From Paramecium tetraurelia (lineage: Eukaryota > Ciliophora > Oligohymenophorea > Peniculida > Parameciidae), in assembly GCF_000165425.1 (NCBI RefSeq), contig NW_001799599.1, forward strand, positions 128,715 to 192,714: 64,000 nt of DNA, in the 5' to 3' direction. Under the pieces are notes generated by a model. That model was given only the letters and a program-made list of their open reading frames with translations, made no database searches and was not told where the DNA came from. Positions 3,775-62,340 of the stretch are shown here, piece by piece; position 1 is the stretch's first letter; the number at the start of each line of letters is the position of its first letter. A program made the translations under genes and the position numbers.

Positions 3775-6052
3775 ATGAACAAAGCATTTCAGAGAAGTAA
3801 TCATTAATCACTATAACAGAGCACTCGGACAATAGTATTCTCAAAGGCAAAACACAGCATAACACTCAACAGCGAAGTCCCTTAAGTACCAAAGAAAATG
3901 ATCACAAATTCAAATATCCTGAAGTTATTCGCAGAAAAGAATCAAAACCTTTGCAAGTGCAAACCAACTAATCAGACATGAGATCACCAAGCGCTTAATC
4001 CACATAGTCTCCCATCAATAGTATTAAATTTAATCTATTCCCAAGAGAGCATTCTCATTACTCATCGATCTCAATCAATGTTCTAAGATGCTTAATACAT
4101 TGATTATATTATCACTAACAAAGAAGTGAATTAATTTCTTAAAAAACACTTCCTACATGAACATATGCATACAAATAGTTCCAGATAAACAAATACTAAA
4201 TTGATTTGTGATTCCTGGGATAAAGTGCCTGTCACCTATTTTATAAAAGCCTTATTTGATGAGTACCCTGAAATCATAGAGGATCATCATTTGAATGAAA
4301 AGTTGAACATCAAATTGAAAACACTCATAAAAGACTTGATTTCTGAAGATGGACAACTCTTATCATTGAACAAACTATAAATCCATACTCGTCATTTAGG
4401 ATTGCTGGGATTGTTACTGACTGCTCTCAGAGACATTCAAGATGCACCGACTGTGAATCATAATACTCCCCATAATTAATCTATTTCACATGAATAGGAA
4501 GTCTCTACTGCAACTTAGTAATAATAATAATAATACTAATCCAAATTTCATAAGATGGCTTCAGAAATAACATCATCAGCCGAAAATAGAATAAATGAAT
4601 TGGTAAATTTGAAATTGCAACAATTCACAATCAAACAAAAGGAATTGGAAAAATAAATACAATAATTAAAATAGAAGGCCACTGAGAACTTTGATCTATT
4701 CCAACATGAAGCCAAAAACAAATAAGTGATCAACAATCTAACCTAATAGTTACAATAGAAAGATCTAATCATAGCAGATCTAGAATAAAAACTCATTAAG
4801 AAATGGATGAACTCATCCTTAGAAGAGGAAATGCATTCAACCAAAATTGCATAACCAAAGGCATCACCAATCAAAATTTAGAGTCCAAGCCAATCTCCCT
4901 TTAATGACAGCAATCAATACTTATAAAGAATGATTAATAATCTATGCACTGTCTGGGATCTAGGGTGTGTCAATGAGGATTACAGATTTGCTCAAATACT
5001 AACAGCATAAGAAAACAATCAAATGCCTTATTAACATTTTCAATTAATTCCGATTATCAAAAACAATCCCTGGCTTCAATGATTTTATTTTTAAATCACA
5101 AAATAACAATCACATCATCACCAATTTTATTTAGAATTGCATGAATAATGATAACAATGTCATCTTAGATTTGTATTATGAAATTATCACTCTACTTCCT
5201 AATTTTAAAATTAGTGACCAAGATCACTATTTAATAAATGTAATGCAATTATTTCTAAAACTAACCGTTTCAATTTTGTAGATAAAAACCGTGTTCAGTA
5301 TAAGCAAACTAAAAGAATGGGGTTCCATCAAGAGACAACTCACTGAATAACAGAACTAATTCATCAAGAATTTAATTACTTAGATAGTCCAAATTAATCA
5401 ATACAGTATTAAGTAGGTGCCCCAATCAAAATTATGGAATCAGCAATAGATTTATCATGACTAGTACATGTCGGAGTATAACAACAAATTGATTGAGAAT
5501 CAAGTTATTAACAACACTTTGAGAAAACAACTAAATTAGATACACAACAAGCAGAATACAAGGTTGTCTCTCATTATTAGGATTATTCAATGCTTCTATT
5601 ACAATGATGTTGAAGAATTAATTGGTCTAATGCAATCGATTCAAGGGGAAACAGATGTGGACATCTATTTATCCAAACTCATACTTGATTGCGATTGCAT
5701 CAACCTAATACTGTTCCCTAGTTTGTTCAATCCCAAATTTGTTCTTAAATCAATCACAAACCTACTTTAATTTAAGTGTCCTGGCTAATTCTATTTATTA
5801 TATACAAAGTAAGTGTGCTAAATTAGAAATATCGATATATTGATCGAATTATTGACCAAAATGCATAACACTATGAATTCGGATGTTGTTATTAAATTAT
5901 GGGATGTACTCGGAGCTATTGCTAAGAGTACTGTCTTAAAAGAATGTAAAGAAGGTCTTCAATTTGTAATAAGATTATATTCGAATTCTCATCAAGCCAC
6001 AATATTACATAATATATAATAAGTATAAAAAAATTTAGCAATCCCAATCTGA
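3775..6052 (+). CDS. Coiled-coil protein with C-terminal helical (HEAT-like) region
   Basis: ATG at 3775, TGA at 6050-6052. Two introns are fixed by frame: 3835-3857 (23 nt) and 4021-4045 (25 nt). A third, short one is needed near 4.95-4.98 kb. The first 100 residues are Ser/Gln-rich and probably disordered. A Gln/Lys/Glu-rich coiled coil follows at 4.55-4.85 kb, including a run of glutamines encoded by repeated TAA. From about 4.98 kb the protein turns into regularly spaced hydrophobic helices (for example VILDLYYEIITLLPNF), suggesting an alpha-solenoid. I do not recognise a family. It ends 40 bases before the start of RPN9 on the same strand. Confidence 0.7.
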
Positions 6053-6092
6053 TTTTATTTTCAAATATTATTATTAAATATATTACAATAAA

Positions 6093-7226
6093 ATGAGTAT
6101 TTTGAATTAACACTAAAGTGTATTTCCCCATCTCTTGACCATCATCGACAGCATGAGGGTCTACCATGAATCAAAATTGTGGAAGCAACTCAGCGATTAA
6201 TTGTTGATCTACATCAAGGATCCTCAAGTCAATTAAGGAACTCATTTGAAAGATCTTTTTGAGGGATTTGTTAAGAAGTTTTATCAAGAGATTGACGAGA
6301 TGAAATTAGTGCGTTTCCTCATTAAGGCTGCAGAATAATACGGAGATTTTTAGAGCAGAATTGATTTCCTCAAATAATTTAAATTGGATGAACAACCCCA
6401 ATTAGTCATTGACATTTTGATAGCCTTCTTCAAACTCCAATAGGGCAAATTGTAGGAAGTGGATGAATTATTGAAATAATACAAACAAGCAAGTGAAAAA
6501 TAGTAAGAAGTCGATCCACTTGTTTATTCAATGCTCTACTATTTGGCATACAATTTCTACAAAATCAAGAATGTCTATGAGGAATTCTACGTGAATGCCC
6601 TATAATACCTAGCATACACTAACGATTAGGATATGTTACAAGAACAAAAGGTGCAACTCTCCTATGAAATGGCACTAGCAGTTTTGATTTCACCAAACAT
6701 CTATAACTTTAGTGAATTGTTGCAATAACCAGTATTAGTTAGCTTAAAAGAAAGTTCCCAATACAATTGGGTCTATCAATTGTTGGATATCTTTAATAGG
6801 GGAAGCGTGAGTGAATTGAAGAATTTCCAATGGAATGAGGAGAGAAAAGGAGTCATACCAAATTTCCTAATCCTGAATGAAAAGATTAGAATCATGGCAT
6901 TTCTTGAATTGGCTTTCTCTTTGCCTAAAAATAACAGGGTTTGCACTTTTGAGGAATTGGCCTAGGTGTCAGAGTTACCCTTAAGTGACATCGAAAGATT
7001 AGTGATGAGGACAATCAGTAAAGGGTTGGTCAAAGGAAGAATTAATTAAGTATAAATATAGTATTAACGATGATAGGTAAAGTAAACAATCACAATTTCC
7101 TACGTTGTTCCAAGAGTATTGACTTTGGATAAAATTGAGATTATTAATAAGAAATTCGGAAATTGGGAGAAATCATTGAATGTCTTCCTTAAAGAAGTTG
7201 AGGATGTGAGGAAGACATTTAATTGA
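6093..7226 (+). CDS. RPN9: 26S proteasome lid subunit RPN9 (PSMD13)
   Basis: A non-catalytic subunit of the lid of the 19S regulatory particle. The start at 6093 gives an N-terminus that matches the family's usual one, with the ESKLWKQLSDQ segment about 25 residues in. Family landmarks follow: the helical repeats with EEFYVNALQYLAYT, the NFSELLQQPVLVSLK segment, and the PCI/winged-helix end with FEELAQ, IERLVMRTISKGLVKG and VVPRVLTLDKIEIINKKFG. One 27-nt intron at 7050-7076 is fixed because removing it joins the INQ and VKQTI parts of the domain. Length, about 365 residues, is normal for the family. The identification rests on my memory of the human protein's pattern and is strong over the whole length. 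Confidence 0.92.
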
Positions 7227-7989: not shown

Positions 7990-10900
7990 ATGAGTACTAA
8001 ATAGATTAAGGCCATGATTATTAAGAATTTTAAAATCAGTTTCAGAAATGGTGAACTTCTCCAAGACATATTGATTCCAATTTTTGTGGCTTGCATGTTG
8101 TCTCTAAAAGGTATTGCTATGATGTAGAATATAGAACAATTGAGTTCATTAAATTAGATCCTACCTATTTTGTATAGCTTTGCTGTCTTACCAACATCCA
8201 GATCCATCATGGTCCATTTGGTCGAGGAGAAGAGTAAAAAATACAAAGAATTACAAGGAGTAAGCTACAGTATATAAATCTATAGATAATGGGAATGAGT
8301 CAATCAGCATATAAAATTGGATGGCTCTTGACTGGGTATTTGAGAATGACTATAGCTCTGATGTTCTTCTTCCTCTTCCAAATCATTTTCAACTATGCAG
8401 TCTCCTTAGATTGGGAATTTTATTACATTAACTCATTTGCTTAATTAATGTGGCCCTACATAGTTTATGGATATGCTGTATACTCTCAATCATAAAATAG
8501 TCAATTAATCAATCTTTTCTGTTTGCTTCATTGATGAACGAGTCAAGAATTGCAGGTGAAGTGGCCACATTCTTTTGTGTTGGCTTCAGTTTTTTTATAT
8601 TCTTGACGTTTATATAATATGCAGCTACGTAATATATTTTATAATATTATTAGGTCAATCTTATTTTATATTTTAGTAGGACTGCTGAGTCCACAATGTA
8701 ACATCGGCTTTGAATACATAACTGCCTTATAAGTCGGAGTAAATAGGATTGGTGCTACTGTAGCGTGGTTTGACCCCATTTTGAAGTAGCCTATGAACAT
8801 ATTTCCAGTAATTCTTATAAATGAGACCTACGATTTATAAGCTTCAGGTTACCAATTAATAGTTACAATGCTCTTGTATTTCTTCTTGGCACTTTATTTT
8901 GATCAAGTAATCCCAAATGAGTATGGAATATCTCAACATCCATTATTCCTATTGGGAATGAAGTACAAAGAGAATTAAAAGAACGGAGAATGTCTCTTGT
9001 CTGAAAAATCAAAAGATGCTACTTCAGCTCAGTATTATGAGAACTTGCAAGAGCATATAGAGCCTTCCATCTATATAGACAACCTAACCAAGTCGTTTAA
9101 CAACAAAGTAGTCGTTAGCAATCTCACCCTCAGACTCTATTAGAAATAAATCTTTTGTCTGCTTGGACATAACGGTGCTGGCAAGACTACAACGATCTCA
9201 ATGTTGACTGGGTTGATAAATAAGAGCAAAGGAAGGATTGTGATGTATGACATGAATTTCGATACTCAATTAACTGAAATTAGAAAGCACATAGGGTTAT
9301 GCATTCAATAGGATTGTTTATATGAATACTTAACAGTTAGGTATTTTCTACAATTTATATTTTAGAGAGCATTTGAGGTTCTTTGCCGAAATCAAGTAGT
9401 CCGAAATCAGGGAGATTGATGAGATCCTCGAAAAAACAGAATTGAAACATGAAATGAATCAAATAGTTAAGACTTTATCCAAAGGTAGTTAAAGGAAATT
9501 GAGTTTGGCCATTTCTTTAATCGGAAATTCTAAAATCATATTTTTGGATGAACCAACATCGGGAATGGATGCTTTTTCAAGGAGAGCGATTTGGAATATA
9601 TTATAAAACATAAAATAAGAAGAGAGAACTATCATTTTAACTACTCATCACTTAGACGAGGCAGAAATATTAGCTGATAGGATAGGAATCATGTAGAGAG
9701 GTGAATTGTTGGCAGAAGGTTCATGTGATTTCATTAAGAAAACCTTTGGAGAGGGCTACACCTTAAATTTAAGAAAGGAATCAATTAAATATCAAGATGT
9801 CTCTGAAATTCTATCTTAAGGCAAGATCATACCAGAATCTTGTCATAAGTCTTAATTAACTTTTTAGATATCTTTTGAACACCAGGATAAACTAGAAACC
9901 ATCTGTGAAAACTTAGAGAGTTAAGGAATAGAGATTGATTTGAGATTGAATACTTTAGAAGAAGCCTTTGTGAAAATTGGAGAACAAGAACAATTAGAAT
10001 TAAGCAAGTCCAATTCCAAAAAATCCATGAGTTTGAATATCATTGAGAATGCTGAGGAAGGCTATTAATAATTCATCGAAAATGTACCAATAAGTGTCAG
10101 AGATAAACCAGTATTTAGCTTATGGAGTCAATGTTTGGCCATGTTCCAACGTCGATTCTATACCACCATTAGAACTAATACCAATATCTTAGCCTTTTTC
10201 ATGCCCCTTCTAACTATTTTGTTGGGGTTATTAGTGGCCAAATTTGTTTAGTTCTCAGGTAGATTATCAAGGAATGACGAAGCTTAATTGTTTCTTAAAA
10301 TTTCGATACTCTCCTGTGTGGGAGTGATAGGGTTCACGTTCAATTCTACTCTGTATGTGACCTTACCTGTACTGGAAAAAGAATGTTAATTAAAGGAGGT
10401 TATGATATGTTCAGGTTGTAGGATCCTAGGATACTGGCTGGGTACATTCCTATTTGATTTTATTGTGTACTCCATCATCATAATCTTCTTCTTAGTTATG
10501 GGGGCAATTTTGAGTTTGGAAGCTATTACATCCTTTTGGTGGCAAACAGTCCTTATTTATTTATGTTTTGGATTAAGCTATATCACATGCATCTACTTGT
10601 GTAGCTTTTTGTTTGATAATGTGGCAAAAGCAATGAAGCTCTTTGTGTTTTATTCTTTCTTTTACGGATTTTGTTTACCAATGGTCCTCTTGGGATTAAC
10701 CAATTTTATATATCATGTGGACTCCATTGACTTCTTTTAATTTTTGGTTTATACATTTTAGGTTCTCTTTATGGTAATTAATTACATTAAATACATAGCT
10801 CGTCTATCCATTTTACAATTATTATTTTGCTTATGCTTGCATGCCTCGTTTGACCAAAGGACTTAAGGCTGAATTAGGAGGATTACATTTAATAACTTAC

Positions 10901-16378: not shown

Positions 16379-17060
16379 TCACAATTTAGATTTTTTTAAA
16401 TGAGCTGTACTATTAAGCAATAAATAATCTGCATTGTCTTTTTAATAGGATATCACATTAACACTGCAATAATCAGCATTATTTGATATAATTTATTTTT
16501 CCAACATATTTACTGCATGAACACCATAACCGTGAGTTACAACTAAGATGTTTTTATTTGAGAAATGCTCTCTCATACGTTTATAATTTTCTGAAAACCT
16601 CCCAAAAAATTCTTATATGGATTCAGGATATTTTTGAATTACCTCCTAGTAGGGCACATTCAGCAAAGGATATTATTTAAAGACATGCTCATAAGATGAG
16701 GATTTATAATAATGTAATTCTGACAAAATGTCCTTTTCAAACCAGTCCTGTCTAAAACATTCTCCTAATCCCTTTGCAATATATATTTCAATTTGTTGTT
16801 CTAACTAACTTGCAATTCCGATTATAGTTTAGACGCATCTCAAATAGGGTGATGTAACCAGAATGATATTCTCGATAGATTGCTTATAGTTATATGAATA
16901 TGGTTACTAATTTCAAAATATTTCTGATATATTTTCCAGTCTTTTTGGCTTAGGCTTCTCCATTTAAAGATAAATGCGGATCAAATGGCAAAATGATTCG
17001 TTGCTTTTCAGCATTTGTACTATCATCTGCCCTTTCTCCATGCCGAATAAGAAAAAGCAT
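16379..17060 (-). CDS. Histidine phosphatase (phosphoglycerate mutase-like)
   Basis: ATG at 17060, TGA at 16379-16381; one 25-nt intron at 16883-16907, whose removal joins RNILKL to QSIENIILVTSPYLRC. About 215 residues. The catalytic RHGE motif (LIRHGERADD) sits at residues 4-13 and the second catalytic histidine in ILVVTHGYGVHAVNML near the C-terminus. A TSPYLRCVQT segment carries the phosphate-binding arginine. The motif set fits branch 1 of the histidine phosphatase superfamily, closer to the protein-phosphatase-like UBASH3/STS group than to glycolytic mutases, but the substrate cannot be read. All catalytic residues I can see are present, so it should be active. Confidence 0.85.
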
Positions 17061-17638: not shown

Positions 17639-19208
17639 TCATATAAGTTCAGCCATATATAGTTTAAAATCTTAAAATGAAATCTAATAATATAAATGTA
17701 CAACATACATTCTTTTTTTATAATTTAACGAATTCTGCTTCGATTAGTTCTTCTTTTACATTGATTTATAATATTAGGCTTTAAATAGTTATGTGGCCTT
17801 TTCGATTTGACAATACTCTGAAAGTATCCTTAAGATTATCCTCTGTCAATAATGACTTCCGATCTGTTAATGCGAGAATGTATTCTTAGATTTCTATTTC
17901 ACCATTTTCATCTTGATCGACATTTGAAAAGATTTCACTTACCACTTGGAAGGCATCTTCATAATTTTCATATAGTTTTTAGTATGCATTCATTAACTCG
18001 TATTTAGTGATCTTACCATCCTTATTGGCATCAATATCATTAAATGTTTAAAATAAACTGGATGATTATTCACTTAGATATTAATTAACCATATATTAGA
18101 GGATACAATATTGGAGCAAACTCATTTTTTTTAGTTTTCTCATATTCTGCAAGTCAACTTTGATTTTGTTTTCGAATCTCTTTTTTTGTTTGATCATCCA
18201 ATTTGTTTTAGTTAAAGATAATAAATCCATTCTATTGGCTGGACTAACCACTAAAATATTTGACAAGAACTCTTTGGATTCAGACGATATCTTATCGAAT
18301 TGTATAGATGACATGTCCAGAATGCCTCTTCTTACATCAGCATATATTTTTGGAACAGTTGCTCCTTTGAACGGTAGAAAACCTGTTAATAAAAAATGAG
18401 CAATAACACCGATGGACCAAACATCTCTTGGTTTTGCTTTGATGTCTTATTCTCTAAATCCCTCAGGTGATGTGTATAGGGCATTAGTGATCGTAATTGG
18501 TTCTTTTACGAAAATACTTTTAACATCTATTAATTTAATGGTATTTTAATCTTTTTGATCATTATATGCGAAACTGCTGAGTTACAGATTTCCATGAATC
18601 AATTTATGTTGATGCAAATAATGAATGACATCAATTATTTACTTAATTATGGTACCAGCAGTTTCCTCTAACATTCCAATTCCATCATTTTTCATATAAA
18701 GGATACCCCCTGTGTAATTTTCAAATATTATTTTATAAGTATCAATATCTTCATAGATATCGAATATTTTGATGAGATTGGGATGGTTCTATAAATCAAA
18801 TTATCTAAAATACCAAATTATGAGTTAACAATTTATTGATGTATTCTGAATGTTCAGGAACTGATTTTGGCAAAGTTTCCACTATCCTAATTTTCCCATT
18901 CAGATTGTTCTACACAAAGGATTAATTCGCATTAACTTAACTTAGAATTAAAAATTACGGTTTTTGCTAGGGACTTTTTCGTAGATAACAGAATAATGTT
19001 AGGAAATTGCAACTTTATGTAATTTAAGCAGTTATTAAGGACAGTTAGATGAATGTGTTAATTTTTTTTGTGAGAAAGTTGATTTTTGAGGGATCGCCTT
19101 TGGTGAAACTGGAGCTGAAGCTGAAGGTATTTTTCTTCTTGATTTTGAGTTTTCATTTTTAGAATTATTAGTTTGATTTGATTTTGGAACTGCATGGCAT
19201 GCTCCCAT
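17639..19208 (-). CDS. CDPK-like pseudokinase A with EF-hands
   Basis: ATG at 19208, TGA at 17639-17641; the last intron, 17684-17708 (25 nt), splits the final EF-hand. The protein begins MGACHA, a likely myristoylation and palmitoylation signal. The kinase fold is recognisable from LIHGNLQLSSFAY, RDVWSIGVIAHFLLTG (helix F) and a PFKG-type helix G. The catalytic loop reads His-Gly-Asn at 18588-18596 in place of His-Arg-Asp, and the DFG site reads Asp-Val-Lys at about 18519-18527. The strand-3 lysine position seems to be glutamate (RIVETL). EF-hands follow: DIDANKDGKITKYEL and NVDQDENGEIEIQEYI keep the calcium ligands; two more are degenerate. I infer no kinase activity and a calcium-sensing role. 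Introns in the N-terminal part were not all placed. Confidence 0.75.
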
Positions 19209-19794
19209 GAATTAATTATATAACTATTAATTTTAAATCAGAAAAAATTATATATTCAATTGTCTTTTGATTATTGTATCGAAATAAATCTTTTACATTA
19301 TATATTTAATCCCGATGTGCATTTAGATTCAAAATCATGAAGTCTTGAGGTTGTTAACATCATTGATGTTAATAGTCTAATCAACGGAAAAGTTTCAGAA
19401 TATTATTATTCAGTTAAGGAATTTTAATTGTTATTATAAAATTGAATTTGATTTTATTAAATTAAGTTTCCATGAAATAAAACTAAGAGATTGAATGATT
19501 AGCATTAAATTAAATTAGAGCATTTAATTAAAATATAGCTGATTATAAATTTAGTGTTACTTGAATTTTAAGAATTAGGAATGAGAAATATTAAAAAAAT
19601 TGGTCTAGAGATATTAATTTAATTATCATTCTACTGATCAGCATTGAAATATAATATTTAATATTATTATAATAATTTATTTGATAGTTCATTTCCATAT
19701 AAAGCGAAATCTCTAGCATGAATTATAAATCTATATCATTCTTGTATTATCATTATGAGGTTTCATTAAATTAATTAATCAAAAATGGGATCTT
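19209..19794. promoter_or_regulatory. Divergent intergenic region between pseudokinases A and B
   Basis: 586 AT-rich bases between two divergent starts, the longest clean promoter region in the left half of the window. It holds a short inverted repeat near 19.36 kb (AACATCA and TGATGTT around two bases). No gene recognised. The promoters of both genes must lie here. Confidence 0.4.
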
Positions 19795-21343
19795 GTACAT
19801 AGAAACTGAAATAAGCTAACAGAGAAATCAACCAAAAAATTAAAAAGAATAATGAAATCTCCATTCAGCTATCCAAGAATAAGTCAAATCAATCTCTAGA
19901 ATATATTTATGAAAAAGGAAAAAAGAAAGTGGTTAAGTAAATTGATCAATCGATGAATATCCAAAATTTCATCCTGATTTAAACTTGCAAATTTTCAAAA
20001 GTGTACTCTTTTGTTTCTAATACCCAAAATGATGGTTTGGCTTAAGTTTTAGGTAAAGGATCAAAGGAAAATATATAAATAATGTAGAATAACCTGACTG
20101 GGAGGTTCAGATTAATGGAGACCCTCAGACTCTATGATTATAATACTAAATAATACATGGATAATCTTATTGCGAACCCTTTAGTAATTTTTAATATAAA
20201 GAATTATAGTCACATCCCAATATCTCTTAAACGCATGAGATTTATTAGGATGACGAATCAATTCATTTAATTCATGACTATTGCAGTGGAGGAGGCTTAA
20301 ATGGCATAAATTTTAAACAGGGTTAAGGAATAGCTGAATAAATTGCTCTAAAAATGTTATTTCAGATGATAGAATGCTTGAATTATCTTCACACAAAGGG
20401 ATTTAATCATGGTCATTTGACATACAACAGCTTCTCAAGAATAGATGAGTCGGAAAATTGCTTTATTAAACTTACAGACTTAAAACCAGTATTTATAAAA
20501 CCATAAATAACATTCGAACAAATGCAGTATTTAGCTCCAGAAATAATCGATGATAACCAAGATTACTCATTAGCCAGAGATGTCTGGTCCATAGGAATCA
20601 TATTTTTTAAACTATTAACTGGTAATTTACCATATGTATCCACTCAACCATACAAATTAAGATTAGAAATAAGGAAAGGAATAGTGTCATTTACTGATCT
20701 CTAATTTGATAAAATATCCTCAAAATCCAAATGTTTCTTAAACACACTACTCCAATATAATCCATCAGAAAGATCAGATCTTAATTCCATTATCAAATCT
20801 CCTATGTATAGAAGATTGATCTCTCAGACAAAAGAAATGAGCAAGTAATCTTCAAACATGTTGATGAATTTTAAACAAGCCAACATTATATAATCATTGT
20901 TTTTACAATTTTTAGTTAGTCAATTTTGTTAGAACTAATAAAATGAAATCTATTAATTGTTCAATAAATATGATAAAAACGGAGATGCTAAATTGAGCAA
21001 AATTGAAATATGTGATCTATTGTATTAGCAACTCAAATCAAAGGAATAAGCCTAAAAACAAGTAGAGTAAATATTTAAAGCCATTGACACAGATCACAAT
21101 GGTTCCATCGATTGCCATGAGTTTATTAGGTGTATTGTAGATAGACAAGCATTGATCACTACTCCTAATTTAAAGGTGATTTTCAAATTACTCTCAAATG
21201 GTAAAGGATCAATTCGAAAAAAGAGATTTATGCAATGTTTTTCAGTTAATCAAAAATAAGCTGACGACATGTTTGCTTCAATCACTAAATCAAAGAGAAT
21301 CACCTTCAAAGTGTTCTCCAGGACTATGATGGAACTTGTTTGA
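19795..21343 (+). CDS. CDPK-like pseudokinase B with EF-hands
   Basis: ATG at 19795, TGA at 21341-21343. N-terminus MGSCTQ, a likely double acylation signal. A weak glycine loop (VLGKGSKENI) is followed by FRLMETL, where the strand-3 lysine of kinases would be glutamate. The catalytic loop reads His-Gly-His (20408-20416) instead of HRD, and the DFG site is Asp-Leu-Lys (20477-20485). The APE motif survives as APEI, and helix F as RDVWSIGIIFFKLLTG. After the kinase-like domain come EF-hands: KYDKNGDAKLSKIEI and AIDTDHNGSIDCHEFI look able to bind calcium; a third is degenerate. The last EF-hand-like helix ends FSRTMMELV. Sister to A and divergent from it. Predicted to be inactive as a kinase. 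Confidence 0.8.
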
Positions 21344-21388
21344 TTGTTATAATAAATATTTTATACTTTCATTTATTAATTTAATTAT

Positions 21389-22081
21389 ATGGAAGAGCCT
21401 TTAATTTAGAATGAGGAAATAGAATCCAAGATTCCAAATGAAAAAGTTATGACAAGACTTATTAAAGGGGAATTTAGGTTTGAGAGAAGATAATACATAT
21501 TTTTAAATGTAAATACTGTCAATTTAGTAATCTAAAGCATAAAGTAATTAGGTGTTAACCATTTATAATTTGATTGGTCCTATTAACATTGAAGCCTAGA
21601 AATCGTTGATATTTTATGAAGATACTAGAGTCCCATTAAATGATCAAGACTTTACCTTAATGAATTTATTGAATGCTTTAATAGTCGTTCATCTTTTGAG
21701 AATTTTCACTTGTTTGTTGGGTTTCTTTAGTGTTTCATAAGTAATGCATTCATTACAATAGAGTAGAAATCTGGTAAAATTATGACCTACTTTATGATTA
21801 TGTCAACCGTTTGTGTTCTCTGTAGAGGAATTATATCCTTATTAATTGTGTTAAATTATACAGCAATAAAAGACACTTGTAATTTGATTTTTGGAGGTGG
21901 CACTGATGATATTGGATCATTGATGGCAATGTAATTTTTGGTTGTTTTGATACTATTTGTAATAGCAGAAATTTTGTTAGCCTTGATCTCATTAATACAA
22001 TGTTCAAAAACTAAAGAGGAATATCGAAGTACTTCTAAATCTATGATTATCTAGTTTGGATTAAACACAAAGAGAGAATGA
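21389..22081 (+). CDS. Small multi-pass membrane protein
   Basis: ATG at 21389, TGA at 22079-22081, with short introns causing frame changes in the first third. Starts with an acidic hydrophilic leader, then at least three hydrophobic segments: NALIVVHLLRIFTCLLGFF, MIMSTVCVLCRGIISLLIV and FLVVLILFVIAEILLALISL. Ends with a charged cytosolic tail. No family recognised. Sits 45 bases after pseudokinase B on the same strand, but nothing shows a functional link. Confidence 0.6.
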
Positions 22082-22446
22082 TGAAGAACTATGAGTTGTG
22101 TTATGAAGTAGCAATTTGTTAATTAGATGAATGATTATTAGATATGTGTAAGATATGGTTTTAATATAATTTAAATCAATATATATACCAAGATGAATTT
22201 CTAACTTAATTGGTCGATTCGGCCTCTCCTTAATAATGTATTGAAAATTTAGATAATATTAAACAAGTGAAAAGCTTCAATAGTTTCTTCCACATAATAG
22301 AAGTTTAAATCTCGAATAACTGATTTTATAAGACAGACATAAGAGGCAGATAACCTTCTAATAAAGTTCAACTAATAAATCAATATAAAACTAATTTTAT
22401 AGAAGGCAAAGACTTCATCATAATATTAATAGATTAAATTAACTGA
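22078..22446 (+). CDS. Possible small protein, low confidence
   Basis: Begins MMKNYELCYEVAI at the very stop of the membrane protein gene. Two plausible introns (24 and 30 nt) remove in-frame TGAs and leave about 105 residues, including YIYQDEFLTQLVDSASPQQC and NKVQLINQYKTNFIEG. Further open coding-like stretches follow to about 22.7 kb. No motif; the exon structure is a guess. Confidence 0.3.
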
Positions 22447-22773
22447 TAATTAGTTGCTGACTAGAGTGACTGAATTTCATTTAACGATATTAGCACTACA
22501 AAACTAATAAATTAGATATTGATTACATCTTGGAAATTGAATTAATAATTGAAAAATAAAAATATAGGCACCAGTGCAAAAGTCTTAAAGAAATTTAGAC
22601 TAAATGAATTTCCTATTAAACAAAAAAACAAGTAGCCCTCTTATCAAGGATGCAAGAATTAATTAAATTGTAGATTTATTATACATATTAAAAAGAGTTT
22701 ATTCGGACACTGATTTATATTCATATAGCTATATATATACTAATTTTAATAAATTAGTTACCAAATTTTACAT
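22447..22773. other. Intergenic or undetected exons
   Basis: AT-rich. The plus strand keeps Gln/Asn/Lys-rich open frames (one with VLKKFRLNEFPIKQ near 22.6 kb) that could belong to the preceding small gene. No start or stop that I can defend. Confidence 0.3.
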
Positions 22774-24392
22774 ATGGGATTGTGCTCATCCAATAAAAAT
22801 TAAAAGCCCATCTAATAATCTCAGATGACAGCTTCTCAACCTGATCATAGTAATATAGTCTTACAATATTTATAGCCAATGTTAAGTAGTCAGAGACCCA
22901 ACTGACAAAACCAACCAAAACTGGCATTCCTTCGATAATTGCATTCCCGATTCATAATTTTGTAAAGGAAGAACTGGATCCTCCAACTCCTTAAAGTTTC
23001 AGGCATAGTTTTCACATAATACCTGAAGTTTAGAAGTCGCTCGAATTTAAAACTGGATTTTTTAAAGCTTATTCTGTAATAACAAAAAATTGTAAAACTT
23101 AATAATAAACCATTAGAGGATGAAAATACACTTGTGTGTCAGCATAATAAAACTGCTGAATTAGTGTTAGTCTATTGCTTGGATCCAAACAACAATTTAG
23201 ATTAGTAATTTATCAATTCAATAAAACAAAATTAAATTGTAATTAAAAATATTATTTTAGGATAATAATTGCATATGTTAATTTATTGAGATATTTAATG
23301 AAAATAAAACATTATACTTGGTATAAGAATATTGCAAAGGAAGCAAATTATCGAAATTGTTAAACTTAGAAAGGTCTAAAATACTATTCATAATGTCATA
23401 ATTAATATAGATTCTCAACTAATTGGACACTCATCACTTATATCATGGACAATTATCTATTGATTCATTTTCCTTAGTTGATGAAAAAAGTTATTATGTT
23501 AAACTAACAGATATTAAGCCGATATATGCATAACATAGAACTTTAGAACCATCCAAAGATTTAGATGACTAAATTACATATAAGAGGTATTAGCCTCCTT
23601 AGGAACATTCATCCATAAAATCTGATGTATTTGCAATGGGCATTATATTTCATCAATTATTAACTGAGAAGTTGCCTGAAAAAATAAAAATAATTAACAA
23701 TCAACCTGTTTGGAATCCCCTAACAAAATTGCAAGATGAGAATGATGAAAAAATGAAGAAATTATTAAAATCGATGATGCTATTAGACAATTCAAAGAGA
23801 ATTTCAGTATAATAATTAGCTGAAAAGAAGTTCCTTAGTATACTTAATAATAAGGATCTGATTTAGGAATTTTTGGACAAGATTTCTAATTGTCCTTCTC
23901 TTAATTATTTCCAAAAAGTGATTTTAAATTTTATGATTTCAAAATTTTAAACTTAGGAATGCAAAATTATCAAACAATTATTTCAAATTTTAGATGAAAA
24001 TAATGAAAACTTTTTACATGTAAACCAATTGGAATAAATTTGCAAAAATTCTAATGAGAATAAGGTGGAATTCAAAATTGATTCTAAAGCGGCTAATAAT
24101 AAAAATGATCAATAAAAAAATGGAAAAAAGATCTCAGATAATGACTTTTTGATTGCCTTGAGCAATAGGGATAAATTATTAACAGAGGAGTATTTAGAAA
24201 CTACATATAATTTACTTAAGAATTAAAATGGTTTATTGAGTGCAAAATCAATCAATAAAAAAATATATATTGATTAAAATTAATTAATCAATGAATTGGA
24301 GAAAATATCATTTAATGGATAGGTATTAATATTTTTTTATAATTTAGATAACAATCAATGAATTCAAGGATATTATGTAAATTTTGAAATGA
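22774..24392 (+). CDS. CDPK-like pseudokinase C with degenerate EF-hands
   Basis: ATG at 22774, TGA at 24390-24392; final intron 24323-24347 (25 nt) splits the last EF-hand, exactly as in pseudokinases A and D. N-terminus MGLCSSN, a likely acylation signal. The kinase-like core shows LYHGQLSIDSFSL, with His-Gly-Gln at 23444-23452 where HRD belongs, and Asp-Ile-Lys at 23510-23518 where DFG belongs. Helix F is SDVFAMGIIFHQLLT; the tryptophan of the usual DVWS is changed. The APE motif is not evident (QPPQEH). EF-hands are weaker than in A and B: LDENNENFLHVNQL and the last ISFNGQITINEFKDIMQ. The most degenerate of the four. Several introns in the first 600 bases were not placed. Confidence 0.7.
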
Positions 24393-24746
24393 ATTACACT
24401 TTTTTATTTTATGTATATATTCTCAATAATATCTAAATATTTTTTCTCCTTGACTTAAAAAGCAGCAAAAACAGCTATAATTTAAGTGATTGTAATCAAT
24501 GGGTCTTCCTAAGTTTACTCAAAAAGTGATTTTTTTGAAATCCATTTTCAATTAGATTTGATGAGCAGTGTTGATTAAAGTTAATATTCCGTGATTCTAA
24601 ACAAATACTTGAAGAAAAAGGAGTTGTATCTTTTTTCAAAAGAAAACAATTAGTACTAAAATTAGATTAAACAAATTACAACTTAAAAAACGCAGACTTT
24701 AGTTTATTAGATAATAAATAAATAAATTCAATAATAATTATTCGTT
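24393..24746. other. Intergenic, promoter of pseudokinase D
   Basis: 354 AT-rich bases with T and A runs; no gene seen. Confidence 0.4.
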
Positions 24747-26285
24747 ATGGGTTCTTGTAACACCAAAAAAAAAGAAAAGAAACAATAATAGGTTGTTGTA
24801 ACCACATAGGCATCTCAAGATAAACCTAGAATCGAGAGAAAATAATAAAAAATATAAACCATTACTCCAATTCTCGCTAAGACAAATTTGTCAGACACCA
24901 TAAACGAGTCAGTTATTTCAAGTCGTTCGATAAATAAAGGTCACGAGAGACAGAAAAACCTAATTTAAGTAAGACCTGGACTTTTCAGAGTCTATACTTT
25001 ATTGGGAAATAAGGCAGACTCTTTTTTGGAAAATTTAGAAGAAAGACAAATAAAAATAGTTTAACATAATGTTAGTGGAATTAAAAAGAGAGTTGAAACT
25101 ATTGATAAATAGATTACTTGGGCAGAGGATTGTATATCACAAATCTAGAAAAACAGATTGGTATTTAAAAATTTAAATCTAGTAAAATGAATATATCTGT
25201 CCAATAACTAATATTTACGAAGACCCAGAGAAGTACTACCTGTTATCAGATTATTGTAGTGGTGGAAGTCTAAGTACCTTAAAGGGGAAACTAAAAGATA
25301 GTTAAGTAATGATCCTCTTAAATTAAATGGTATCTGCCATCTCTTATTTACATTCTAAAAGAATGGTTCATGGAAAATTGTCTTTGGATAGTTTCCATTT
25401 ACTGAGTGATTTAAATAGTTTATTTTGTAAATTGGTTGATGTGGCCTGTTTATTTAATTGTAATCAGCAGGTTAAGATAGAGCCTTCATTAGAAGAATAC
25501 TCTTAGGATGTTTATGCTTTGGGAGTGATTGGTTATCAATTATTGACTGGATAAATGCCTCTATACATAAATAGAAATAATGAATAAGAGAACAATGAAA
25601 ACCAAAATGAAATTCTATATTTTAAGGAAGAGACCTCACCTTCTTTAAAAAGAATTTTGAAGAAGATGTTAGAAAAAAAACTGAATGAAAGAATCACTAT
25701 GGATGAAGCAAAAAAATAATTGTCCAAAAATGAATAACGAAACAATTATTAGGAAGTTTTAATAAAACCATTATATGTTTTATCAAAATGTAAGCCAAGG
25801 AATTATTTTCATGTCATAATTCTGGCTTTTATGCTGAACAAATTCAATCAGGAGGAGGAGTGCATGCTATAGAAAATATTCAATGATGCAGATCTTGATT
25901 ATGATGGGCTGTTGAAGAAAGATGATATTCTTAAATTATATAAATCGGTTGTTGAATATGAAAGCATTAATGTGGATATTTAGCAACTTTTCTAGAAATT
26001 AGCTATTACACATCAAGATTCAATAGATATAAATGAATTTATCTCAGCATCTTTAAATCTCGAAGACTTAATGTCATAAACATATTTAGAAACCTGCTTC
26101 AAATATTTATAGAATTAAAATGGATTTATAACTTGTAAAAGTGTCAAGAGGCATCTTGAAATCAATGACAAATTATTCATTTAAGCAATTGAAGAACTTA
26201 AAGGCCAACACAAGGTACATTATTAATAAATATATTATAGTTGAATTATTCCGAATTCTTAGAGATTATGAGATAACTGTTGTGA
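24747..26285 (+). CDS. CDPK-like pseudokinase D with EF-hands
   Basis: ATG at 24747, TGA at 26283-26285; the last intron 26215-26240 (26 nt) again falls in the last EF-hand. N-terminus MGSCNTKKKEKK, an acylation signal followed by a basic stretch that would help bind membranes. N-lobe RPGLFRVYTLLG, then RVETIDK with glutamate at the strand-3 lysine position. Catalytic loop His-Gly-Lys at 25369-25377 instead of HRD; DFG site Asp-Val-Ala at 25438-25446. Helix F is DVYALGVIGYQLLTG. EF-hand 1, DADLDYDGLLKKDD, keeps most ligands; the others are degenerate and the last ends LNYSEFLEIMRQLL. Expected to be catalytically dead. Confidence 0.75.
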
Positions 26286-27196: not shown

Positions 27197-29189
<1,993 letters not shown>

Positions 29190-29216
29190 TTTAAAAATTA
29201 ACTGTTAAAAATAATT

Positions 29217-29396
29217 ATGAAGAAACATAAATCCAACATCAAGTACGAAGACAAAGATGAGAATCCTTTTTTATTGTTCAAAATGTAATAATCTATAAAT
29301 CTTAAGGAAAATGTCAAAAAAACTATCAAAATCATTTCCAATATCCTTTTAATAATTAGGCATGAAATCTTGCCTCTAAATTATAATAGTAAATGA
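29217..29396 (+). CDS. Possible 59-residue ORF
   Basis: ATG at 29217 to TGA 29394-29396, divergent from MAPK15 by 27 bases. Lys/Asn-rich N-terminus, then a helical stretch (KKTIKIISNILLIIRHEILP). No motif; may not be a gene. Confidence 0.3.
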
Positions 29397-29920
29397 AAGA
29401 TTATCTCTGTCTTACAATCTAATTTATTTAGAGATCGATGCAATTAAATCAATTTAAGATTATGAAAATTAAATATTGAATATGAATAACTTAAATTTAC
29501 ACATTCTACTTAATATGAATAATGAATCTAATAACTTATAATAAAACTTTATGCCTGTGATTATTAATTTAATCTTTAGTTTTTTAAGAGTATTATGAAG
29601 AAATTAGAATCTAAGGTAAATTAATTGTCATGATAGTGATAATTATGGAAATAAGTTAATTACAAGTTGATTTTTCGTTTATGTGAATTAAATATTAAAT
29701 TAACTCTACAAGAGACAGTTATAATTCAAATCAAATTGTAATCTATTAATAGTTCAATAAGCTCTTTCTTTTATAAGGTTTGCAGAAATGAAATTCTTTG
29801 AATTTTTTGTTGTGTTACAAGATCTAAATTTAGAAAGAATATATCTAAATTAATTAATGATTGACTTTATGGCATTATTTAAATGAATTTGTAGTGTCGT
29901 TGAATAGTTGAATAATATTT
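29397..29920. other. AT-rich intergenic stretch
   Basis: No open frame with protein-like composition, no motif and no RNA gene recognised. Confidence 0.4.
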
Positions 29921-30501: not shown

Positions 30502-31990
30502 ATGTCAACCAATCAATCTCATATTCGATCTTGGTAGCAAATACTATCAGACATTTCTTCATGCATGATCCAACTGTCTTTGGGCTATATTTGTGTTGAG
30601 CTGATGATGTCAATCAATTTACACTTTCTTAATCTACATACAACTAAAACCAATGTTGCAGCATTTGGAATTGCATGGATGATAATCACTATATTGTTAC
30701 TTCCCTTTGGAATAGGTATCATAAATTACAATACTATCTAAGGTCTTAATCAAGCTTTGAACACCTTGGCGTCTTAAGCCATCGGAATGGGAAAAAATAA
30801 ACTATCACTCATCTATCTAAATTTCACTCTTTCTTCTCATGTCATCATATTTATCCCTCTGCTCCTAATGATTTTATGCCTCAAAACTCCATTTAGCTAT
30901 TTGATAGTAGAAGACAGAGAAGAAACCATAAACACAGCATGGTAATTGTTATAAATATATAAAATTTAGGGAACTCATAGTACCATTATCAATCACTTCA
31001 TTGGCCTTATTGATATTTGAGGGTTTGAAGAGCTATTTGATATCATGTGAAGTGTTTAGACCGTTTATGGTTATTCATCTAATCACTTTAGCACTTCATG
31101 CTTTTTGGTGTTGGTTATTAGTTTCAAGCTACGGGATCTATGGAGTTTGTATTGCCACCTTAATATCAGAATGTACAAACATACTATTGTTATTGCTTTA
31201 TGTAAAATAAGAAGAAGAACTTTAAATAAAATTTAAATCTTTTCAATTCAAATTTCTATTGCTATCTCATTTTCACATTTATAAAGAATACATTAAAAAT
31301 ACAATTTCAATAATAGTCCATATTTATTTAAACACAGGCATATTTATTATTTTGTCATTTACAGCCATCTCTCTTGGTATTGATGCAACCAATGCATAAT
31401 TAGCCTTATCCAACACATCATCCTTATACTTCAGGGTGCCACTTTGCTTATCAATAGCCTTGATGACTTATGTAGGCAATCAAATTAGTCAATAAAACAT
31501 AATGAATGCCAAAAATTATATTAAATATGGCCTTATATTATATTTCAGTATTCTAGTGGTCATCATGATGATCTTCTATTTTTACCACTTAGAATGGGCT
31601 CACTTCTATACAAAGGATCAAGTTGTTTAAGAAATGTTATTGAAAACTCTACCGTATTTCCTATTGGGTAGTGTGGCGATAGATGGAATACAGATAGCCT
31701 TAAGTGGAGCACTTAAAGGACTCGATGAGGGTAAGTTGGTTTCAAATTACACATTATTTGTTGCATATTTTGTGGGTATCCCACTAATTCTAATATTAAC
31801 TTAAATATTCGATTTTGGTTTAATTGGGATTTGGTTAGGTTTTGGAATATGTAATTTTTTATTGTCCTTATTATTTGCTCTCAAATTATTGAAAATTGAT
31901 TGGGATGTTTAAGCTAAACATATCAAAGAAAAAGTTGATAAGTAGTCTCAATAGATGGAAACAACGACCGAATTATAAGATTTATGTTGA
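30502..31990 (+). CDS. MATE-family multidrug/organic cation transporter
   Basis: ATG at 30502, TGA at 31988-31990; one 28-nt intron at 30942-30969, whose removal joins INTAW to ELIVPLSIT. About 485 residues with twelve hydrophobic segments. Family landmarks are ALNTLASQAIGMGKN (the conserved 'L.TL..QA.G' of MATE after the second helix), FEGLKSYLISCEVFRPFM (the family's 'LQ.YL..Q....P' region) and GSVAIDGIQIALSGALKGLDEG (the 'D..Q....G.LRG.G' repeat in the second half). The tail is short and charged. MATE proteins export organic cations or drugs using a proton or sodium gradient. Substrate not known. Confidence 0.9.
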
Positions 31991-55638: not shown

Positions 55639-55850
55639 ATGAATTAGCAAATCGATGAGGCGCAACTACATCAAGATATGTCCTAAATTTCACAAATCAC
55701 ACAAGCTCTTACATAGGCCAATACTTTGGCACAAACAATTTAAGAAGAAAATATTAAAATGCTCTAATTATGGTAACCAAAATCTACAGCAGTTCTCATA
55801 TTATCTCTTTCTATACAAATTTATCTTTTATTAATTTATATTACCCAAAC
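55639..55850 (+). CDS. 5' end of a Gln-rich protein, cut by the assembly gap
   Basis: ATG at 55639 opens MNQQIDEAQLHQDMSQ and a heptad-like Gln/Thr-rich stretch to about 55.76 kb, where a GTAACC could begin an intron. The frame then runs into the run of N. No continuation is recognisable after the gap. Confidence 0.4.
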
Positions 55851-56000
55851 NNNNNNNNNNNNNNNNNNNNNNNNNNNNNNNNNNNNNNNNNNNNNNNNNN
55901 NNNNNNNNNNNNNNNNNNNNNNNNNNNNNNNNNNNNNNNNNNNNNNNNNNNNNNNNNNNNNNNNNNNNNNNNNNNNNNNNNNNNNNNNNNNNNNNNNNNN
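55851..56000. other. Assembly gap (150 N)
   Basis: A run of 150 unknown bases. The true size is not known. Confidence 0.99.
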
Positions 56001-56915
56001 ACGGTGAATCTACTTTTCAGGATGACTGGCGGTAAGGCGCGCCTCCGTACATCATTTATCTATATATATAGCTGATAATTATTATATTTATTAATGTGAA
56101 ATGGAAGATTCTATTAAAGAGCTTCATAGCTTTTTTGTACATATTAACATGCACGTATAGCCGATCTTTAAAGAAAAATATAAGAAAGATTATTTTTAAT
56201 ATACAATTAATTAAAAGAAATTAAAGACTTTTTAATTAATTTGATAGAAACTTATTAGATCAATTAAATAGTTGAATTTGATTGGCCTAATACCTTTCTA
56301 ACGCATTGATTAAAAAGTCTATTATTGCATATTAAAAATAATCTTAATTATATTTTCCTTTCATGATCTGCAATATCTTTAATAAGAAGATATTTTAATT
56401 GTATTTTTTACTATATTTTATTTTCTTTATTCAGAACACTATAAAATGTTAAAGAGAGTTAGCTTCTGATAGAAAAGGAAAGATCGCCACAATTTTCAAT
56501 ATTTTAGGTTCAGGATTTAGTTTAGAATACCTATTAAACAGAGATTACATTTATTTTTGGACCCTAAAACTAACTTTTATTCTCTGTAATAATTTCATAT
56601 ACCTTTGTTGAAATCACAAATTCAGTCATGTAAATAGTACAGTCAAAAATGTAGAATCTTAAAAATTTCTACTTCTTAAAATGAGACTGAGTATTGGTAT
56701 CATTTAAAAATATCAATTTTTTTTTTTCACTTTTTCCAAGAGTAGATAGTTATATTCATATATGTATTTATAATAAATATAGTTAAAGCAAATATGTTGA
56801 TTACGATATTTTATATTCAATCAAATTTTGAATATTTTTTAATATCAATTGTTATTCAGGAGAAAAGGTTAAATAATGACAAAGTAAGAGAGAACTGCTT
56901 GATTTTCGATCATAA
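56001..56915. other. GC-rich patch, then AT-rich non-coding DNA
   Basis: The first 55 bases after the gap are unusually GC-rich for this genome and contain the 8-bp palindrome GGCGCGCC. The rest is AT-rich, with a T run near 56.72 kb, and holds no gene I can support. Confidence 0.5.
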
Positions 56916-58656: not shown

Positions 58657-60375
58657 TCAGAAGTTAACTATTTATGTTTAAATCTTTACGTGGTAGTAAT
58701 TGGGTATGGATGAGACTAATTTAATTAATTGATTTAAGGCATCATTTACTAATTAGATATTGGTTTGAGGAAAGAGCATGAATATGAAATAACACTCTAT
58801 AAAATGGTTAGACTTGATTACTTTATGGTTAATCTAAGATTCCGAACCATTCTGAATAGGCATTCTTATAACTTAGTTCTAAGGAATGAGTAGAGAAACA
58901 AAGTTCAGCTTAATTTCTGATGTCTTGATAAGAGGATTCATAAGACTTGTTGCATCGTCGCTTTTAAATGTGAGTGAATTCTTATCTATCACAGTTAAAA
59001 ATGGCAAAGCAACGATAGACTTTACCTCTATTTTTGTTATTTTCCCTGATTACGCTCATTGAATTATTATTAATGTGAAACATTTTAACAGGCATCAATT
59101 TATTTATATGGTAAAATTCATGATTTAGGACTTTAATCAAAGAAAGATCAAAACATTATACTCTCCCTTGATTTAGAATGATTTAAGAAAATATATTTAT
59201 TATATATATACTTAAGCTTGAGTTCAAATGTTGTGTATTCTTTACTTGAATTAGTGTTCTTGAGTCATGGATCTTAATTGATTCTTCAAACCTTGCGTGT
59301 TCTATACCTTGTTCATATCTAAGTATTGATGGGGGTTATTCAAGGCGTCCATGATGAATTTGTCCCACATTGAATTTGGAATCTTTCTTTGAAGCATCTC
59401 CTTATGGAGTATACACAAAGGTATTTTTTGAGATGGGTGACTATTGGATAATTTGGTTTTCTACGCTAAACATTTAGAATAGAATATCCTTTATTGCTAA
59501 CTATATTGATTAGAGTTATTAAGATCACTATCATTTTGATTGGCTTCACTTTCATCAAATTAGGACGTTGATATCTTCGTCAAAATTTCACTTTTCATAT
59601 CATGCAATTAATTTCTATCTTAACTACCAGAGAATTTAGTTATAATTGTGGGTCTTCCATATGGGGAATTCTAAAATTATGATGAAGGAGGCAATTGCGA
59701 ATTTCTACTCTATTCAGATGGTTATTAAAAGCGATATGTAGATAACTATTATGCACTGCCATAACTACTGTAATTGTTGCTTACTTAATTACTACTAATT
59801 TAATTGTTGTTATTGATATTATTGTAATTGGGCTTTGGAATATCAACTCGGGGAGTGCGTATCTCCTTTTCTAATTAAGTTTGCTTTTACAATCCCAAAG
59901 AATGCAATCTTTCTAGATATAATGCGATAGCTAAGGAACCACGGTAAGATTCTGTCATTGTTCTTAACTCTTAATTTAAATCCTACAGCTTTCTTAATTC
60001 AATTTAATTTGTGTTTTGGATTGTCTATATTTGCTCACACATTTCGTCTGCTCTGATTAAATACTTTTTAATTTCTTATTTCGATTCTTTTGAATTTAAT
60101 TGTTAAATTGAATCTCTCAGCTTTGAAATCTTGAAATTTATTTCATCTAGAATCCTATTCGATTTTAGTACTGCCGTTACACTCTTTGAAACGCTTAAAC
60201 ATTTCATTGTGTGTTGATCGATCTCATTTATAGGTATTAAATTCTCGCAATTCATACAAGGAACTGAATACATGGCTGGTGGAGCGGTCTTTGGCCCTCT
60301 ATTTTGTTAAATAAAATTCTTAGCACTCTAACTATTCTGATTGGCTGATCTTTAAGAAAAATAATCAGTTTGCAT
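58657..60375 (-). CDS. C2HC zinc-finger, coiled-coil protein
   Basis: ATG at 60375; last stop TGA at 58657-58659. Near residue 40 is PCMNCENLIPINEIDQHTMK followed by Cys, giving C-x2-C-x11-H-x3-C, the spacing of ZC2HC-type fingers. A coiled coil follows (ILDEINFKISKLRDSI onward), then a Gln-rich run near 59.8 kb with many CAA/TAA codons. The part below about 59.2 kb (LPFLTVIDKNSLTFKS, FHINNNSMSV) has a beta-strand look and could be a separate gene; I joined it through two plausible introns of 29 and 28 nt. Zinc-binding part firm, overall gene model moderate. Function unknown. Confidence 0.5.
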
Positions 60376-60415
60376 TATATTAATTTTTATATATATGCAT
60401 AACAATCAACAGCAG

Positions 60416-61209
<794 letters not shown>

Positions 61210-62340
61210 TAATTATATCAATTAAGTATTTTGTTCAAAGAAATTCTTAAACACTTTTGATAAGAATTAAGTAATTCAATCAAAGCCATCAGTCTGACTT
61301 ATAAATTGTCAAATTGTGATATATTAAAGGTGAAATTAATTTAAATTTGCAAGATTATCTGTTATTGTCAAAGCTTCAATCATATTTTAATATTCAAGAA
61401 TTCATAAATGGTAAACACAACGATTTAACAAATATTTGGTTTGATCTTGAATGTATAAAATACAAAAACAAAAACAAAAATTAATATATATTTATATTTT
61501 CAATTTACTAATATGACATAAAAATTATCAAAAATAAGATTCCAAGTGCAACATTAACACAATTTGTAATCAGCAGTATTAGACAGGAAACCAATCAACT
61601 AAAAGTTTGAGTTAGAATGTGTTAAAATACAAGAACTGTTGACAAATAAAAAAATAGAAATTTGAAATAGTGGAATAGTGATAATCACAAATTAAGGGTA
61701 ATTGAAGGCAACATAATTTAATTAGTATATGAAGTAGATTATGTTCTAATTAGATCTTGAGAAATAGAATCCAACAAACATTCAATTTTATTCATAATTA
61801 AAATGAAAACAATAACAAAAGAAAAGAAAGAGAATAAATATCTATAATTTACATGTTTTGCCAAATCATGAGAAGGCATTTTATTAAGGAAATTGTATAC
61901 CTAGATTAGAATCATATTTTGGAAGCACCTAGAAATATTTAGAAAGCATAGATGAAATATAAGGTTCTATTGAATGTTATAATAAACTTGTTGAGTAAGA
62001 AAAAAGAAGCTTCATACGATTGCTTTCCTATTAGCTTTCCTATTAAAGTAGATGTCCACTTTTAAATGTAATAATTTTCAATCTGATTTGTTTGAAGTTA
62101 GATACCCATAATTTACTTTGCATGACATGTAATTAAATGTTCCAAGTTGTTAATAATTCAGATTTCAAACATATATAGCCAAATTTCTTGTTTGCTTATA
62201 TTATTATGAATTACTTTTAGAATTAGATAATGTAGTATTTGCTTATGATGAGAATTGGAGAGTAATTTAGACTGACCCTTTTTAAAAAATCCTGAATAAG
62301 ATTTCGCTATTTGGGGTGCAAGGATACAAATAAATTAATT
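61210..62340. other. AT-rich region with ambiguous open frames
   Basis: The first 600 bases show nothing. From about 61.8 to 62.3 kb long open frames exist on both strands under the ciliate code, for example plus 61856-62081 starting MFCQIMRRHFIKE and another plus frame with SIECYNKLVEQEKRS. None has a motif and the frames conflict, so I do not call a gene. The promoter of the PIWI gene must lie at the right end. Confidence 0.35.

Follow-up and report, generated by a model that had tools for sequence, protein, structure and literature searches.

A family of predicted CDPK-derived pseudokinases in Paramecium, seen from a cluster of four genes

Calcium-dependent protein kinases (CDPKs) of alveolates and plants, represented here by the Paramecium genes on contigs C190, C180 and C58 and by PDB entries 3lij and 4ysj, consist of a protein kinase domain, a junction and a calmodulin-like tail of EF-hands, in that order. 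The 64,000-nucleotide stretch of Paramecium tetraurelia DNA analyzed here, which we call the window, contains four neighboring genes, A to D, that share this order of parts and belong to a family whose best matches in both sequence and fold are CDPKs. Unlike CDPKs, the modelled members of this family lack the Asp of the HRD motif, the Lys of the catalytic loop and the Gly of the DFG motif, seldom match the pattern of a third EF loop and never that of a fourth, and possess an intron of their own. We propose that A to D are members of a large and old family of CDPK-derived pseudokinases with a single origin, whose proteins would serve as membrane-tethered, non-catalytic and partly calcium-responsive scaffolds or regulators, a reading that we consider somewhat probable on the sequence evidence presented below.

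Several described systems invite comparison. PSKH2 is a human pseudokinase of the CAMK group with N-terminal myristoylation and a putative palmitoylated Cys (PMC9988210; here and for the other papers cited by PMC number, statements refer to the available portions of the source). The Paramecium family is likewise composed of CAMK-type pseudokinases with an acylated N-terminus, which for the family is a prediction. PSKH2 differs in that its sole change is HRN, its ATP-binding residues being kept, and in that this change is a recent primate one, and the available portion of that report makes no mention of EF-hands; the Paramecium family has lost far more and comprises at least 34 genes, and the window genes, rather than having HRN with the other ATP residues intact, change HRD to HGx, the Gly-rich loop, the strand-3 Lys and the DFG Gly. 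For Ichthyophthirius, 38 likely pseudokinase genes have been reported, together with a CDPK expansion in ciliates (PMC3341644). These too are ciliate genes with a Pfam kinase domain that are judged likely to be inactive; unlike the present family, they are not described as CDPK-derived, acylated or of single origin in the available portion of that report. The P. caudatum protein O3Pc-MSP is also a Paramecium protein with a kinase domain and four EF-hands, located at a membrane, but it is reported to have ATP- and calcium-binding residues and has a peptide of canonical type (PMC10974281). P. tetraurelia itself is credited with about 101 CDPK-class proteins (PMC3019232) among 2602 kinases (PMC9608856). 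Our search of the open literature, whose scope did not include the P. tetraurelia kinome paper (Bemm et al. 2009), found no description of such a family.

Under the ciliate code (table 6), in which TAA and TAG specify Gln and TGA is the stop, the window contains 138 open frames of 150 codons, compared with none under the standard code. Genes A to D, which are part of contig C198, were modelled by hand from open frames and candidate introns of 22-26 nucleotides and assembled by script (Table 1). All four models are complete, and together they span exactly positions 17639-26285, matching the outer ends given in a preliminary description of this DNA that was made from its sequence alone. Their least certain splice site is that of the first intron of gene A, which ends in AAG, not TAG. 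Because B and C are separated by other open frames, the cluster is a loose one. Pfam detects a protein kinase domain and three EF-hand models in each of the four proteins (E up to 0.01; PF00069 at E 1.9e-24 for gene A), and a profile of A to D searched against the PDB returns full-length apicomplexan CDPKs as its top matches (3lij, E 9.2e-58). The junction region is covered by the alignment of the family models. Identity to gene A is 32% for B, 21% for C and 23% for D.

The spliced models confirm what had been read from the open frames: HRD is replaced by His-Gly-X and DFG is altered in all four genes, and at least three have Glu at the place of the strand-3 Lys (Table 1). Judged by eye, A, C and D seem to have a broken Gly-rich loop, whereas in B GxG is retained and the third glycine is gone. 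The APE motif of gene D is absent from the family alignment. The preliminary description had allowed that a normal HRD or DFG might be encoded through different exons; we rejected this as unlikely, since the codons of both motifs lie deep within exons of 1032-1134 bases.

Counting A to D, 34 members of the family were modelled in a single Paramecium genome (69 Mb in 231 contigs, which carry labels such as C198, C89 and C7). The genome was queried with A, B, C, D and a neighbor at 114 kb of C198, and the models were made with a splice-aware profile alignment written for this analysis. The 34 represent the top-ranking matches to B and D rather than a census, and their choice by similarity to B and D favors family members; at least seven further matched places (C7:176.7 kb, C56:138.1 kb, C70:133.8 kb, C83:87.2 kb, C109:509.2 kb, C57:128.4 kb and C16:185.0 kb) may or may not belong. 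With family queries many places outscore the active CDPK at C190, which itself outscores a few family places when B is the query. When an active CDPK is the query, the modelled family places, except the one on C128, are absent among the 104 matches listed.

The His of HRD is kept in all 34 members and its Asp in none. By the definition of a pseudokinase as a kinase domain that has lost the strand-3 Lys, the HRD Asp or the DFG Asp, every member therefore qualifies through its HRD Asp, and the family does not carry the set of catalytic residues (Lys, HRD Asp, DFG) expected of a CDPK. The catalytic-loop Lys is likewise gone from all 34 and the catalytic Asn from all but one. The DFG Gly is missing throughout (0/34), as recounted on raw sequences because profile columns are open to insertion error, which was seen for C190 and C180. 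At the place of the HRD Arg there are 28 Gly, 3 Lys, 2 Asn and 1 Cys, and at that of the strand-3 Lys 19 Glu, 6 Lys and 9 others, one of them a gap. Gly or Cys for the HRD Arg is also found in VRK-type and plant non-RD kinases, which belong to other kinase groups; VRK1/2 and the plant non-RD kinases keep the Asp. Residues with a structural part are largely retained, namely the Asp of DxW (34/34), its Trp (29/34) and the Pro of APE (29 of the 30 models having that column). From these changes we infer that the kinase domains lack activity.

Thirty-one of the members, which form the main clade described below, share a derived HGxLxxxSF signature (Gly in 28, Ser in 27, Phe in 29) and, before the DFG place, a Lys and a Leu in 30 each (KLxD), counts that are inflated by close copies. 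In the modelled N-lobe, which starts immediately after the Gly-rich loop, no Lys is conserved in at least 75% of these 31, and hence nothing there points to a relocated ATP lysine. The other three members, on contigs C128, C193 and C204, have His-Lys-Asn for HRD. This HKN trio keeps the strand-3 Lys, changes the DFG Asp to Gly and has the family intron; MGxC, the N-terminal signal considered below, was not found in it. The trio may be a sister branch of the main family.

Two trees point to a single origin of the family. The motif columns had been removed from both. In tree 1 (393 columns and 50 rows, of which 34 are of the family, 5 of CDPK type and 11 of other kinases), the 31 members form one clade apart from the five CDPK-type kinases with support of 97/92. 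In tree 2, built from an independent MAFFT alignment reduced to 44 rows by dropping three long rows of the family and three of other kinases, 28 members form one clade (97/93), the HKN trio joins them (31 members, 97/94), and the five CDPK-type genes are grouped (85/84). The His-Gly members thus fall in one clade, as the preliminary description had expected of a CDPK tree, with the comparison made against five CDPK-type genes of the same genome (C190, C180, C58, C194 and C36). One other-kinase row is placed among those five in tree 1. Some branches, including those of A and C, are long. Tree 1 unites C with D and the copy of D (98/89), and in tree 2 the three are still joined, outside any starred set of their own, with a warning for long branches. 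The fewest changes that account for loss of the HRD Asp on tree 1 number two over all rows; we assign one of these to the family and the other to the genes on C194 and C36. These last two have HRE for HRD and keep DFG, a separate and milder change at the same place; among the five CDPK-type genes, only C190, C180 and C58 are canonical there.

A phase-0 intron lies at one profile column, just before the H-P-N motif, in 34 of 34 family models. It is absent from all four of the CDPK-type genes that are readable at that place (C180, C190, C194 and C36, C58 being unreadable there). The alignment method could pull introns to one column, yet all 34 share one phase. The common intron, the MGxC start found in 29 of the 34 members and the HGxLxxxSF signature support one ancestral loss, and the catalytic residues appear to have been lost once, in the ancestor of the family. 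Independent decay of four tandem copies is rejected by the single clade, the common signature and the common intron. The proposal of one ancestral loss followed by duplication and retention is thus supported by the clade, with selective retention seen for B, D and seven other pairs only.

The cluster extends upstream of the window, and nine family genes, A to D included, lie within 94-155 kb of contig C198, at 94, 96, 98, 102, 114, 146 (A), 148 (B), 151 (C) and 153 kb (D). On contig C89, five of the nine (those at 94, 102 and 114 kb, B and D) have colinear copies, with order and strand preserved, and C7 carries sisters of the 98 and 114 kb genes. This arrangement fits an old tandem cluster that was copied by whole-genome duplications, some copies then being lost. 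We also considered A to D as a private local radiation, the self-contained local duplication suggested earlier. The four are scattered through a clade of at least 31, and constraining them to group with the C89 copies of B and D gave borderline approximately unbiased test values (p-AU 0.054 for tree 1 and 0.043 for tree 2); the suggestion is not supported in the form first given.

Selection was assessed from the ratio of nonsynonymous to synonymous substitution rates (dN/dS, or omega), using a pairwise codon likelihood written for this analysis and pairs with dS below 2. Gene B and its C89 copy are 77% identical over 415 codons (dN 0.124, dS 1.69, omega 0.073), and gene D and its C89 copy are 72% identical over 396 codons (dN 0.152, dS 1.68, omega 0.090). 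Of the 13 family pairs, nine could be used, among them one from the HKN trio; their omega values are 0.036-0.124, and comparison with omega of 1 gives twice the log-likelihood difference as 155-293. The other four pairs are saturated (dS 5.7 to 101). As controls, an active CDPK pair gives 0.037 and another kinase pair 0.022, one further pair being saturated, so that the family ranges from a value equal to that of the active CDPK pair to about 3.4 times as high. These low values indicate that the genes are not decaying pseudogenes and point to strong purifying constraint on the family pairs, as judged from nine pairs that include B and D but not A or C.

All four window genes start with MG-x-Cys, and an MGxC start lies upstream of 29 of the 34 family models: in 22 it is directly in frame, in five it is reached under a permissive rule that allows one intron, and A and C have it in their hand models. 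Across 200 mononucleotide shuffles of these stretches the motif turns up on average in 0.2 and at most in 2 of the 34; the reverse strand yields 2, and none of 13 control kinase models has the motif (three of these with shorter upstream stretches). Given this background and the loss of the HRD Asp from every member, chance is no serious alternative. The five models without MGxC are the HKN trio, C109 and the one at 209 kb of C7, which is cut by the edge of the locus. The PROSITE myristoylation pattern fits 24 of the 29 MGxC members, including A, C and D of the window; B misfits. Most members are thus probably myristoylated and palmitoylated.

We scored EF loops with a PROSITE-like pattern, which matches two loops in A, one in B, none in C and none in D, compared with four each in the active CDPKs C190 and C180. 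The first EF loop of gene D retains acidic ligands (DLDYDGLLKKDD) though it fails the pattern. No family member has the four calcium-binding loops of a CDPK (0/34). Accordingly, the acylation signal and kinase-like domain ascribed earlier to all four genes are present, but the EF-hands ascribed to them lack a canonical loop in C and were overstated for D; "calcium-responsive" fits A and B and perhaps D, but not C. The sparseness of EF loops means that a calcium switch cannot be general in the family, and a switch for part of it is plausible from the sequences.

For structural comparison, AlphaFold2 was run on an alignment of the long exons of A to D; the resulting model is of one exon of A without its N-lobe. 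The EF half is well modelled and the C-lobe poorly. In a Foldseek search with this model, ranks 1-39 of the best 50 PDB rows are CDPKs (best E 2.4e-12). The predicted fold supports a CDPK-like architecture and says nothing on the state of the active site. Of the four structures that the preliminary description had proposed to predict and overlay on a CDPK, the analysis thus covers one, that of A, in part.

If A to D belong to a single-origin family of non-catalytic scaffolds or regulators, a CDPK ancestor would have lost the HRD Asp, the catalytic-loop Lys, the DFG Gly, nearly always the Asn and mostly the strand-3 Lys too, and would have retained the kinase scaffold along with the junction region and calmodulin-like tail, with one intron common to its descendants. 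Acylation would place members on membranes such as the plasma membrane, the ciliary membrane or secretory organelles. In members with EF loops 1-2 (A, B and perhaps D), calcium would alter the tail, and the altered tail would expose or hide a surface on which the dead kinase domain binds proteins; where EF ligands are missing, as in C, the members would be constitutive scaffolds. Several observations weigh against this picture. The strict EF pattern gives no loop in 9 of 34 members, matches at the third-loop place in only 4 (C109 and the HKN trio) and at the fourth in none, four models ending before that place. The clade of all 34 members, with the HKN trio joined to the 31, is weakly supported in tree 1 (75/68). 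No close copy of A or C was found, and hence there is no dN/dS for either. The gene A exon model has a mean predicted local distance difference test score of 68.6 and a predicted template modelling (TM) score of 0.58, the other four models score 36-40, and TM to CDPKs reaches 0.42 by query length at 22-26% identity. Finally, the DFG Asp is kept in 25 of 34 members and the strand-3 Lys in 6, so that some members may still bind nucleotide.

These last residues would also suit unusual but active enzymes that carry out phosphotransfer, AMPylation or other nucleotide chemistry with relocated residues, as do atypical kinases in which a canonical motif is missing. WNG kinases lend the idea some precedent, at least one of them being active. 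They have no Gly-loop (PMC6442604). We nevertheless consider the idea improbable, as none of the 34 members retains the HRD Asp, the catalytic-loop Lys or the DFG Gly, 33 lack the Asn, and no Lys of the modelled N-lobe is widely conserved. A stronger contender, though still an unlikely one, is that the dead copies act as dominant-negative or pairing partners, dimerizing with an active CDPK or taking its substrates at the same membrane, the ratio of the two setting the calcium output. The CDPK architecture and the intact substrate-side scaffold (DxW Asp and APE Pro) would allow this, and pseudokinase pairing is known from HER2/HER3 (PMC3019232), but the depth and diversity of the clade, evident already among A to D, suggest several partners, not one, and the active CDPKs C190 and C180 have no MGxC in the 900 upstream bases tested.

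That the genes are decaying, functionless leftovers of CDPK duplication we regard as extremely improbable. Decay would account for the missing catalytic residues, the rapid divergence, the EF ligands lost from some members and the omega values, which reach about 3.4 times the value of the active CDPK pair (0.124 vs 0.037, although the lowest family value equals it); the constraint on nine pairs, the full-length frames and the conserved new motif speak against it, and for B and D it is contradicted. A role in mating or ciliary calcium signalling, like that of the CDPK-type mating substance of P. caudatum, is suggested by a report that the O3 mating substance is a 489-residue kinase and EF-hand protein of the ciliary membrane (PMC10974281). 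We find such a role quite improbable for the family, as the available portion of that report describes the P. caudatum protein with seven introns and with residues for ATP binding, and a peptide of it that ends in AQNLIK resembles the HRD-bearing C58 (ISEDAQNLIK). Membership of the mating substance in the family is unsupported by this one peptide compared.

Beside the cluster of predicted dead kinases lies a kinase gene on the opposite strand to B, C and D with a normal 11-residue stretch and a TEY activation motif, which we take to be MAPK-like. Further along the window, a frame of 4327 codons encodes a giant Cys-rich repeat protein next to several near-identical shorter frames, a region that may be a genuine tandem array or an assembly artefact. 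A run of N produces about 50 codons of X in frames on both strands. Near the end of the window, one frame resembles by eye the N-terminal part of an Argonaute/Piwi protein, for which Pfam returns nothing at E 0.001. These and the Pfam-identified neighbors are included in Table 1.

Table 1. Coordinates of features, as window positions unless a contig is named
Feature	Location	Strand	Details
Gene A	17639-19208	-	498 amino acids; exons 18959-19208, 18814-18935, 17709-18788, 17639-17683; start MGACHAVPK
Gene A, HRD codons	18588-18596	-	HGN; DFG to DVK; strand-3 Glu
Gene A, family intron	18789-18813		phase 0
Gene B	19785-21343	+	510 amino acids; exons 19785-20183, 20210-21343; start MGSCTQKLK
Gene B, HRD codons	20408-20416	+	HGH; DFG to DLK; strand-3 Glu
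Gene B, family intron	20184-20209		phase 0
Gene C	22774-24392	+	506 amino acids; exons 22774-22849, 22876-23091, 23117-23238, 23261-24322, 24348-24392; start MGLCSSNKN
Gene C, HRD codons	23444-23452	+	HGQ; DFG to DIK; strand-3 Tyr
Gene C, family intron	23239-23260		phase 0
Gene D	24747-26285	+	496 amino acids; exons 24747-25160, 25183-26214, 26241-26285; start MGSCNTKKK
Gene D, HRD codons	25369-25377	+	HGK; DFG to DVA; strand-3 Glu
Gene D, family intron	25161-25182		phase 0
HKN trio	C128:17894-19187; C193:114091-115271; C204:136631-137813		His-Lys-Asn for HRD
HRE genes	C194:23742-24839; C36:431412-432329		CDPK-type
PSD13-type protein	5877-7073		Pfam; PCI domain
ABC transporter	9256-10872		Pfam
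Histidine phosphatase	16379-16912		Pfam
TEY kinase gene	27197-29627	-	
MatE transporter	30905-31990		Pfam
Giant Cys-rich frame	32057-52225	-	
Run of N	~55850-56010		
Ras-family GTPase fragment	60252-60890		Pfam
Argonaute/Piwi-like frame	62296-62841	+	

The wider proposal, which we put forward tentatively and at less than even odds, is that one loss of CDPK catalysis in the ciliate line was followed by radiation into at least 34 proteins, mostly with an anchor signal and a new, selected HGxLxxxSF ... KLxD signature, that in effect form a separate class of non-catalytic calcium and membrane effectors. If this radiation took place, counts of kinases may have taken dead forms for enzymes, and if this genome is typical, a sizeable share of CDPK-class proteins may be non-enzymes. 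A pseudokinase clade of single origin and many members, kept through apparent whole-genome duplications, would offer a natural series on the selection of dead kinase domains, and would bear also on how a calcium tail works without catalysis. For Paramecium itself, the family offers candidates accessible to RNA interference for calcium-triggered events.

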